Below are positions 2,413-61,548 of a stretch of DNA of 64,000 nt, piece by piece. The stretch lies in NCBI RefSeq assembly GCF_000177235.2, contig NC_014829.1:124001-188000 (forward strand). The letters run 5' to 3'. The translations under genes were made by a program, and so were the position numbers. The DNA comes from Evansella cellulosilytica DSM 2522. Lineage in GTDB: Bacteria; Bacillota; Bacilli; Bacillales; Salisediminibacteriaceae. The notes under the pieces are model-generated. The model was not told where the DNA came from. It saw only the letters and a program-made list of their open reading frames with translations, and searched no databases. Numbering within the stretch: position 1 is the first letter of the stretch; every line of letters begins with the position of its first letter.

Positions 2413-2917
2413 ATATGTTTTATCGATGCTATTTGTAGCGTTCAAAGAGCAAATAAAACGTAATTTTTTAATAAATGAATCAATTTATCATTCACTTTCA
2501 AAAAAAACATCTTATTAAAAAATTTCTTGTAAATTTAACTTTAGTGTTGATTTTCACTTCAGGCTACTCGCTTGCCGCGGGCAAGGCTTCAGCTAATCGG
2601 GGAACCTCACCCCGATGGATCTTCAGCTCTTGCTTTTCCCGCAGGCGTCTCGTATCCTTTCGTTTCAATCAACAATACTTTGAACAAAACGTCATAATTA
2701 TGCTGCTACTGAATTCGACATTTTGGGGAAGTACTCCTCTTGTCATGCTTTTAAACACTTGTCTTGTAATGGGCTATAATTATGAAATTGATTCAAAAAT
2801 TAAGCTCTGCTATAGGCTAGTGTGGATAGCCACGTAAGGTGCGAGGGTCTGCGGCTAGCGAGCATCCTGAAGCAAAAATAAACAAAAAAGTTTAGCATAA
2901 CCTAAAATAAAATACAT
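2413..2917. other. Non-coding interval between gltX and the cysE T-box
   Basis: About 500 bp with no supported gene. It contains the palindromic repeat at 2545-2674. Downstream of that (2675-2917) I see only AT-rich sequence with no homology I recognise. The one open frame through it (2475-2837) is a chance frame across the repeat. Confidence 0.7.
2545..2674. repeat. Palindromic Bacillaceae-type dispersed repeat, about 130 bp
   Basis: Bounded by the inverted 8-mers TGTTGATT (2545-2552) and AATCAACA (2667-2674). Inside are a second imperfect arm pair, TGCCGCGGGCAAG and CTTGCTTTTCCCGCAGGCG, and a perfect central hairpin ATCGGGG/CCCCGAT (2596-2602 and 2610-2616). The GC-rich core is unlike the AT-rich flanks. 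This layout resembles the short palindromic repeats scattered through many Bacillus genomes (from memory). No open reading frame, so it would be non-autonomous. Confidence 0.7.
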
Positions 2918-31858: not shown

Positions 31859-32003
31859 TTAAACTTCGTTGTTGATTTTCGCATTAATGATGAATCCGTC
31901 GAGACAGCTCGGATTGTATTTTATCGCCGTGCGTACTAGCGAGAAGAGTACTCACTATAACTTTAAGAGCTACGGCGAAATTCGACTGCTTATAAGAAAA
32001 GAC
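31859..32003 (-). repeat. Dispersed repeat related to the sigH-downstream copy and to the tRNA-cluster units
   Basis: Its right part (31913-32003) aligns with 7921-8011. Its left part, read on the minus strand, carries CCGAGCTGTCTCGACGGATT (31911-31892), 18 of 20 identical to the core of the tRNA-Lys array (60564-60583), followed by CAACGAAG as in the array. The far end has TGTTGATT (31869-31876), the same terminal octamer as the palindromic repeat at 2545. ATCGCCGT and ACGGCGAAAT can pair. No coding potential. Confidence 0.65.
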
Positions 32004-59736: not shown

Positions 59737-59812
59737 TCCACAGTAGCTCAGTTGGTAGAGCAATCGGCTGTTAACCGATCGGTCGTAGGTTCGAGTCCTA
59801 CCTGTGGAGCCA
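59737..59812 (+). tRNA. trnN: tRNA-Asn (GTT), copy 1
   Basis: 76 nt. Acceptor TCCACAG/CTGTGGA, D-arm AGCTCAGTTGGTAGAGC, anticodon GTT in the loop CTGTTAA, T-arm GTAGGTTCGAGTCCTAC, discriminator G and encoded CCA. First gene of the cluster. Confidence 0.97.
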
Positions 59813-59898
59813 AACTTTCATCCTTAAAGATCATGATGCTCGTTCTATTGAACTGTAAGAGAGCAAGGGAAAAAGCTAAGGAAATATATTAATGCCGT

Positions 59899-59974
59899 TC
59901 CACAGTAGCTCAGTTGGTAGAGCAATCGGCTGTTAACCGATCGGTCGTAGGTTCGAGTCCTACCTGTGGAGCCA
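59899..59974 (+). tRNA. trnN: tRNA-Asn (GTT), copy 2
   Basis: Identical to copy 1 over all 76 nt. The spacers after copies 1 and 2 begin alike (ACTTTCATCCTTA) and end alike, so gene and spacer were duplicated together. Confidence 0.97.
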
Positions 59975-60071
59975 AAACTTTCATCCTTAGAGAAACATGC
60001 CGCTGTTTAATGCTTCGAAAGATCCTGAAAGTGAAGCAAGGAATTGTTAAGGAATTTTTTATTGATAGCAT

Positions 60072-60147
60072 TCCACAGTAGCTCAGTTGGTAGAGCAATC
60101 GGCTGTTAACCGATCGGTCGTAGGTTCGAGTCCTACCTGTGGAGCCA
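60072..60147 (+). tRNA. trnN: tRNA-Asn (GTT), copy 3
   Basis: Identical to copies 1 and 2. Only one base separates it from tRNA-Thr, which shows that copy 3 marks the ancestral position and copies 1 and 2 arose upstream. Confidence 0.97.
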
Positions 60148-60446: not shown

Positions 60447-60519
60447 TTTATTTTTTCTAATTCTAGAAGAGGAAGACATTGGTCGTAATCTTTATTAAAG
60501 CATCATTTGAACAATCTGC

Positions 60520-61167
60520 GAGCCATTAGCTCAGTGACGAGCGTTTACATCGTCGGAAAATCTCCGAGTTGTCTCGACGCATTAAGCAACGAAGCAATAC
60601 TAGAAGAGGAAGAGACAGGTGTAAACTACAAAGCAAAGCATCGTCCGTAATCATCATGAAAAGCATCATTTGAATAATCTGCGAGCCATTAGCTCAGTGA
60701 CGAGCGTTTACATCGTCGAATAAACTACGAGTTGTCTCGACGGATAAAGCAACAAAGCAATACTAGAAGAGGAAGAGACAGGTGTAAACTACAAAGCAAA
60801 GCATCGTCCGTAATCATCATGAAAAGCATCATTTGAATAATCTGCGAGCCATTAGCTCAGTGACGAGCGTTTACATCGTCGAATAAACTACGAGTTGTCT
60901 CGACGGATAAAGCAACAAAGCAATACTAGAAGAGGAAGAGACAGGTAAGACCACAAAGCAAAACATCGTCCGTAAATATCATGGATATGCAACAATGAAA
61001 AACTACGAGCCATTAGCTCAGTGACGAGCGTTTACATCGTCGAATAAACTACGAGTTGTCTCGACGGATAAAGCAACAAAGCAATACTAGAAGAGGAAGA
61101 GACAGGTAAGACCACAAAGCAAAACATCGTCCGTAAACATCATGGATATGCAACAATGAAAAACTAC
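60520..61167 (+). repeat. Array of four tandem units each starting with the 5' end of tRNA-Lys
   Basis: Units at 60520-60682 (163 bp), 60683-60845 (163), 60846-61006 (161) and 61007-61167 (161), ending exactly at tRNA-Lys. Each opens with GAGCCATTAGCTCAGT, nt 1-16 of that tRNA, then GACGAGC, which still closes a D-stem (GCTC/GAGC) over a shortened loop. After that tRNA identity ends. Shared core: CGAGTTGTCTCGACG, then AGAAGAGGAAGAGACAGG and CATCGTCCGTAA. Units 3 and 4 differ at about one base. First halves of units 2-4 are identical; second halves group as 1=2 and 3=4. No open frame and no anticodon arm. Confidence 0.92.
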
Positions 61168-61243
61168 GAGCCATTAGCTCAGTTGGTAGAGCATCTGACT
61201 TTTAATCAGAGGGTCGAAGGTTCGAGTCCTTCATGGCTCACCA
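61168..61243 (+). tRNA. trnK: tRNA-Lys (TTT)
   Basis: 76 nt. Acceptor GAGCCAT/ATGGCTC, D-arm GCTCAGTTGGTAGAGC, anticodon stem TCTGA/TCAGA around CTTTTAA (anticodon TTT), T-arm GAAGGTTCGAGTCCTTC, CCA encoded. The only complete tRNA-Lys after four partial copies of its 5' end. Confidence 0.97.
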
Positions 61244-61315
61244 TTTAATTAGGTGAGAAAATATAGCGCAACATCGTCTGTAACCTTCATGAATAAGCTT
61301 CATTGAAAAGTCAAC

Positions 61316-61472
61316 GGGGCCTTAGCTCAGCTACGAGCAAAGCTGCCAAGAATAATCAACGAGTTGTCTCGACGCATTAGCAGCTGTGAATATGCAGAAG
61401 AGGAAGAGACAGGGACTACAAAGCGCCACATCGTCCGTAATCTTCATGAATAAGCATCAATGAAAAAACAAC
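61316..61472 (+). repeat. Single 157 bp unit starting with the 5' end of tRNA-Ala
   Basis: Opens with GGGGCCTTAGCTCAGC, nt 1-16 of the tRNA-Ala that begins at 61473, then TACGAGC closing a small D-arm. It continues with the blocks shared with the tRNA-Lys array: CGAGTTGTCTCGACGCATTA, AGAAGAGGAAGAGACAGG and CATCGTCCGTAATC. It differs in the middle by an inverted pair AGCTGC/GCAGCT. The preceding spacer (from about 61265) resembles the unit tail. Confidence 0.9.
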
Positions 61473-61548
61473 GGGGCCTTAGCTCAGCTGGGAGAGCGCC
61501 TGCCTTGCACGCAGGAGGTCAGCGGTTCGATCCCGCTAGGCTCCACCA
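61473..61548 (+). tRNA. trnA: tRNA-Ala (TGC)
   Basis: 76 nt. Acceptor GGGGCCT/AGGCTCC (one G-T), D-arm GCTCAGCTGGGAGAGC, anticodon stem CCTGC/GCAGG around CTTGCAC (anticodon TGC), CCA encoded. Last gene of the cluster. Confidence 0.97.

Follow-up and report, generated by a model that had tools for sequence, protein, structure and literature searches.

A short structured repeat, probably an insertion element, behind copied tRNA gene starts in Evansella cellulosilytica and related bacteria

The tandem units that precede a tRNA-Lys gene of Evansella cellulosilytica DSM 2522 each consist of a copy of the start of that gene (the head), a dispersed repeat of 79-81 nt, ACGAG...GAGACA, here called E, and a tail. 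We propose that E is a small insertion element specific for AGNN^, that its presence at tRNA genes is accompanied by duplication of the tRNA start, and that the array was built by unequal exchange; we give this reading a probability of about 0.68. The identity of E and its target rule are well supported, E is structured, apparently non-coding and apparently mobile, and insertion rather than excision is the direction that we infer. E would then be an all-structure mobile element inside essential tRNA genes of Bacillaceae, which it does not destroy, and would offer AGNN as a clear target rule, together with naturally empty sites and the puzzle of a useless-looking tRNA piece that matches its neighbor. 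It would also explain tandem oddities upstream of tRNA genes that annotation pipelines have passed over.

The array lies within the window, that is, the whole stretch of 64,000 nt that was analyzed. It is real (TRF score 1091) and comprises four tandem units of 163, 163, 161 and 161 bp starting at 60520, 60683, 60846 and 61007, the last of which ends at 61167 and abuts the only intact tRNA-Lys gene, starting at 61168, just as the first-pass annotation had described it. The same annotation was right that every unit copies tRNA-Lys nt 1-16, with nt 17 differing (G in the head, T in the tRNA), and that the units form a mosaic: over the first 100 nt units 2, 3 and 4 are identical and unit 1 is 93% identical to them, and in the remainder the identity is 100% between units 1 and 2, 98.4% between 3 and 4 and 69.8% between 2 and 3. 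Head plus E is exactly the same in units 2-4, yet two tail types are found among them, and the mosaic break falls 3 nt beyond the 3' end of E. A fifth unit, overlooked earlier, is situated upstream of tRNA-Ala and has the tRNA-Ala start as its head. ORFs overlapping 60450-61480 reach just 51 aa. The features are as follows, with heads and tails from sequence comparison, E from the covariance model and intact tRNAs from a tRNA gene search:

60463..60519, + strand, remnant of an older, truncated unit (3' end of E, ctagaagaggaaga..., with tail), by eye from the sequence
60520..60536, + strand, unit 1 head, tRNA-Lys nt 1-16 plus G for T at nt 17
60537..60617, + strand, unit 1 element E, 81 nt (model R1, 84.5 bits)
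60618..60682, + strand, unit 1 tail, type 1
60683..60699, + strand, unit 2 head
60700..60780, + strand, unit 2 element E (89.5 bits)
60781..60845, + strand, unit 2 tail, type 1
60846..60862, + strand, unit 3 head
60863..60943, + strand, unit 3 element E (89.5 bits)
60944..61006, + strand, unit 3 tail, type 2
61007..61023, + strand, unit 4 head
61024..61104, + strand, unit 4 element E (89.5 bits)
61105..61167, + strand, unit 4 tail, type 2, opening with GGTA, the tRNA-Lys continuation past the insertion point
61168..61243, + strand, intact tRNA-Lys (ttt)
61316..61332, + strand, Ala-unit head, tRNA-Ala nt 1-17
61333..61411, + strand, Ala-unit element E, 79 nt (75.1 bits)
61412..61472, + strand, Ala-unit tail, opening with GGGA, the tRNA-Ala continuation
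61473..61548, + strand, intact tRNA-Ala (tgc)

Three tRNA-Asn genes with similar spacers also stand in tandem at 59737-60147 of the window, a recent tRNA duplication beside the array. Further tandem arrays were seen before tRNA-Thr, Lys and Met genes (ARAGORN names) in Halalkalibacter, Evansella and one further genome (L136, L171, L250, L255, L264, L301).

The roughly 140 bp following each head had been described as conserved sequence unrelated to the tRNA. Conservation elsewhere concerns only the 79-81 nt directly after the head, that is, E, which makes up most of that sequence, so that the suggestion of a small element at tRNA genes is supported with E, and not the whole unit, as the element. 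The covariance model (E-value <=1e-3) finds 86 copies in the E. cellulosilytica genome (4,681,672 nt searched), and the unit used as query has at least 50 matching places there, 40 of 99 first-look candidates having been scored. With up to two mismatches, the core 15-mer CGAGTTGTCTCGACG has 87 occurrences in the genome and none in the reversed control, therefore its repetition is not due to chance. In the family the same model detects E in 24 of 35 genomes and six of eight genera, with 1 to at least 132 copies each; in the other 11 genomes no copy was found among the best candidates scored (up to 133 per genome). A strict pattern matches 32 of 397 genomes and 17 of 135 genera of the order, and Evansella, Fictibacillus, Shouchella, Halalkalibacter, Anaerobacillus and others are among the matches listed. 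In a phylum sample of 249 genomes only E. cellulosilytica was positive, a weak absence since the best 18 candidates per genome were scored. No match to E was obtained in viral contigs, phages and plasmids, and in the Rfam search tRNA alone exceeded the gathering threshold, with nothing on 60520-61167 in lists up to E-values of 5 and 0.5. Rfam includes families such as HEARO, group II intron and RtT. The abstracts and passages returned by a literature search hold no description of E. Inspection by eye of 30 ORF clusters lying up to 1.5 kb from it revealed no recognizable integrase, transposase or reverse transcriptase, and the lack of the latter two counts against the insertion reading.

E away from tRNA genes, in loci of at least 2.5 kb, lies inside a mechanical ORF of at least 90 aa in 26 of 141 cases, and the remaining 115 show no clear bias of orientation to neighboring ORFs (33 ++, 32 --, 28 +-, 17 -+). 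We also considered whether relatedness of E copies tracks tRNA type or genome. Any such signal is weak: mean identity is 0.832 for pairs sharing both genome and tRNA, 0.736 within a genome between different tRNAs, 0.723 for one tRNA compared across genomes and 0.691 for pairs sharing neither; the nearest neighbors of 53 copies fall into these classes 9, 9, 12 and 23 times, respectively. A decayed E-like core, CGAGCTGTCTCGACG, absent from the covariance-model matches, was noticed at 31897-31911 (- strand) of the window near a GTTGATTTTC-type MITE end.

The structure of E is well maintained. Its arms are fully complementary in 242 of 257 copies and mismatched in 15, the pairs being TGTCTC/GAGACA (221), TGCCTC/GAGGCA (6), TGTTTC/GAAACA (5) and TGTTCC/GGAACA (4), with the rarer matched changes TGTCCC/GGGACA (3), TGTCTT/AAGACA (2) and TGTTCT/AGAACA (1). 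Two of the search patterns behind this count named matched variants; a recount with a pattern blind to arms and closing pairs gave 253 copies and 2024 cells, of which 1967 are Watson-Crick, 21 G-U, 12 A-C and 24 other. Taken as a strand cue, the wobble counts (G-U 21 versus A-C 12) do not fix the strand. E position 2 and the G before the arm form C-G in 97 of 105 copies, A-U in five, and G-C, U-A and U-G in one each. The closing pairs covary, with 99.2% of cells paired and 19 double changes against 1.3 in shuffles, in 56 diverse copies (of 58 picked, two omitted) that all come from the patterns of the 257-copy count; for further pair types taken alone, 45 of 500 shuffles reached the observed level. 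RNAalifold recovers the main helix unaided. E consists of two neighboring domains closed by covarying pairs. The A1-U and U-A(last) pairs are adjacent, which brings the 5' and 3' ends of E together at the insertion junction; in alignment these ends, ACGAGC and GAGACA, do not form an inverted repeat. At one Shouchella locus (L209) the first domain has shrunk to ACGAG-CGCAG-CGAGT, presumably a tandem G-A hairpin.

After duplicate removal there were 359 E-like matches, of which 150 lay no more than 1 kb from a tRNA on the same strand; 141 of these had a head match (score >=6) and nine lacked it, and the 109 loci in which E directly adjoins a tRNA form the base set for the head and AG counts. The head corresponds to the first 12-31 nt of the locus's own tRNA, perfectly at 85 of 109 loci, and 2264 of 2300 nt match (36 mismatches), a count favored by the selection of loci on a head-match score threshold. 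E starts exactly 2 nt past an AG at 108 of the 109 loci, which fall into 18 site classes whose members are not independent of one another, and 17 of these classes follow the rule; the exceptional locus is L131, where the E start is uncertain. As background, 76 of 432 positions (positions 10-33, one tRNA for each of the 18 site classes) are 2 nt past AG. E is not confined to the D-loop, the site that had been suggested earlier, but is located at tRNA nt 12, 14, 17, 24-27 and 31, and tRNA-Phe alone hosts it at 12, 17, 24 and 26, always 2 nt past AG. The tRNA genes concerned represent 10 amino-acid specificities and, according to our assignment of loci to organisms, 13 named genera.

This distribution bears on the explanation that a broken tRNA plus its spacer was multiplied locally by unequal crossing over and no mobile element took part. 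Units in tandem, the mosaic pattern and the nearby tRNA-Asn genes all suit it, and unequal crossing over does fit array growth and the mosaic. However, the unit contains more than a broken tRNA and a spacer, and the same E accompanies different tRNA starts across these specificities and genera and also lies within MITEs. The first-pass annotation had named relatives at other tRNA genes as the test of plain local duplication, which their presence already contradicts, and we consider it scarcely tenable.

Directly after E the next bases of the tRNA, 1-6 nt, are found in 97 of 103 parsed loci (109 minus six unparsable) and none in six; examples are GTTAA (Asp), GGATA (Arg), GGGA (Val), often GTC (Met) and T alone (Gly). 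This continuation averages 2.34 nt with the own tRNA versus 0.45 nt with other tRNA classes, and reaches at least 2 nt in 64% versus 11% (n=103). Since the tRNA continues directly after E, its start has been cleanly interrupted by E and the copy then ends, the order at a locus being tRNA start, E, a few nt of continuation, tail and complete tRNA. Not one of the 103 loci shows a tRNA simply split by E that retains its 3' half (longest continuation 6 nt), which counts against insertion. No antisense tRNA lies within 330 bp of 275 strictly defined E copies with sufficient flanking sequence. A nearby repeat of the preceding 12 nt exists for 126 of these copies and is missing for 149; in 95 of the 126 it belongs to a recognized sense tRNA and in 31 it lies elsewhere, which we read as further array units or unrecognized tRNA copies, except at L129. 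There, at +2765, a non-tRNA 12-nt direct repeat, TTAGCTCCTCCA, flanks E. In a sample not chosen for tRNAs (51 regions of strict-pattern genomes outside the genus, omitting three places of genome G103 and one of G238) a head match of score >=6 accompanies 57 of 71 E-like matches. As to the tails, we rejected descent from a decayed tRNA 3' half (local score 5.60 with the 3' part of the own tRNA and 5.71 with those of others; the own tRNA scored higher in 44 of 103), and we find no support for descent from a decayed E (the excess is above 3 in 9 of 102 tails and in 8 of 102 left spacers). A motif near ACATCGTCCGTAA is common to Lys, Ala and Arg tails (L001, L136, L148, L158, L285, L329) and occurs with Met in L166 and L210.

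At the Fictibacillus tRNA-Lys locus E is present in four and missing in seven of 11 genomes, a twelfth (L345, another genus) being left out because the promoter match was absent. The empty leader equals the left spacer of filled loci, which add E, a tail and one head. Filled loci have similar-looking tails, and both of the two leader types occur in filled as well as in empty genomes, which suggests an old insertion followed by several losses through deletion between the repeats. Two MITE-like repeats, here called MITE A and MITE B, occur both with and without E. Among 30 fetched copies of MITE B from three genomes, 10 with E and 20 without are otherwise nearly identical: arm AGGA is followed by GTC in the 20 and by ACGAGC in the 10, so the left junction is exact, and the right junction differs by a few nt. 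No target duplication distinguishes MITE B copies with and without E. The long target duplication suggested earlier applies to tRNA genes, where the tRNA start and initially some leader were duplicated, and not to MITEs. MITE A was found with E in five copies and without it in 12, its arms not being located in 13 of 30; a MITE A left arm without E (L418) lies at 2640-2686 (- strand) of the window. The inverted repeats seen by eye are those of the host MITEs, not of E. In E. caseinilytica (L245-L263) E is also present in near-identical copies of MITE C, whose length was estimated by eye at about 300 bp, and several of these hold another E-like piece into which a TCATCGCGCGCGATGGCA-type hairpin is inserted; no MITE C without E was found in that genome, with 2-mismatch matches alone, nine versus two in the control. 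Travel as a MITE passenger may be the route of spread for many dispersed E copies, and we count it against insertion by E itself.

The copied tRNA start is kept strikingly exact. In 89 single-unit loci the heads are 98.5% identical to the tRNA (28 mismatches in 1839 nt), yet at -1 identity is down to 85%, and by -13 it has reached background. Similarity upstream of the head is locus-specific (mean extension 7.5-12.6 nt versus 2.0-5.0 shuffled), from which it follows that the duplication originally extended into the leader. Four orthologous Fictibacillus loci have heads identical at 17 of 17 nt with divergent E loops and tails, and heads track tRNA variants (Gly TTAGTGG/TTAATGG, Met GGGGTGG/GGGATGG). 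Head identity is higher than would be expected after drift in insertions that look old, which speaks against insertion. Heads are kept either by conversion from the adjacent tRNA or by a function; we lean towards conversion for long heads, and it is strained by heads of 12-14 nt.

A function is the core of the view that E and the tRNA start form a leader RNA acting in cis on processing or transcription of the downstream tRNA, with selection preserving the head. The exact, variant-tracking heads beside divergent E loops and tails, the conserved pairing and the lack of antisense tRNAs agree with this, but in a single genus E occurs patchily and exact empty sites exist, one tRNA hosts it at several points, and dispersed copies show no clear gene-orientation bias. 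We judge a leader role improbable. The units may also be transcribed as tRNA mimics, as was suggested earlier from the sequence. Finally, the tRNA start could be a 5' guide and E a scaffold, an RNA-guided nuclease cutting the empty tRNA site and so driving spread. The head does match the downstream site closely, unpaired bases included, and E does follow the match; however, the match begins near tRNA base 1 and varies in length from 12 to 31 nt, unlike a fixed-length guide, the intact site persists next to E, no nuclease was found in the ORF clusters inspected by eye, and Rfam gave no match, which makes this very improbable.

In the insertion reading that we prefer, the first step would be clean entry of E into a tRNA gene. 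A template switch or sister exchange, either simultaneous with insertion or later, would connect the sequence a few nt beyond E to the leader of an intact copy and restore a working tRNA downstream, so that persistence would be limited to insertions early in the tRNA gene. The short direct repeats would then permit precise loss, growth of arrays by unequal exchange and homogenization of heads with the real tRNA, and the four Lys units and one Ala unit of the window would have followed the same route. Covarying ends and sense-only orientation lead us to guess at an RNA or single-stranded intermediate. A tentative idea, to us more probably wrong than right, would make E the first member of a novel class of RNA-like mobile elements. 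It would be a structured 80-nt module that has no terminal inverted repeats, inserts after AGNN through such an intermediate and specializes, in the sense orientation, on tRNA genes; by carrying or rebuilding the tRNA start it would let the host gene survive, and the copied start would be actively kept identical to the real one.

Among known systems, RtT repeats at E. coli tyrT are tandem units of about 160-180 bp, each with part of the neighboring tRNA, its 3' end. The window units are likewise tandem, of similar size and carry part of the adjacent tRNA gene, but here the 5' start is copied, the 80-nt E is nested within and recurs at many tRNAs, and the units have no Rfam match. Integrative elements that target tRNA genes, such as phages and islands, usually restore the tRNA 3' end and encode an integrase. 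E resembles them in that a tRNA gene is entered and an intact tRNA left, and differs in its size of about 80 nt and in duplication of the 5' start; the window units have no ORF above 51 aa, and no integrase was recognized by eye in the 30 ORF clusters near E. MITEs and small interspersed repeats such as bcr1, RUP, BOX and Bhal-1 are short, structured and dispersed like E (PMC2267715). Bhal-1 is a stem-loop family of 74 bp with 36 copies in B. halodurans (PMC2267715) and may overlap with E. In place of a short fixed target duplication there is none in MITE B, and the repeats at tRNA genes measure 12-31 nt or more. What further separates E from MITEs and small repeats is that its ends are not inverted repeats and that it sits 2 nt past AG in tRNA starts.
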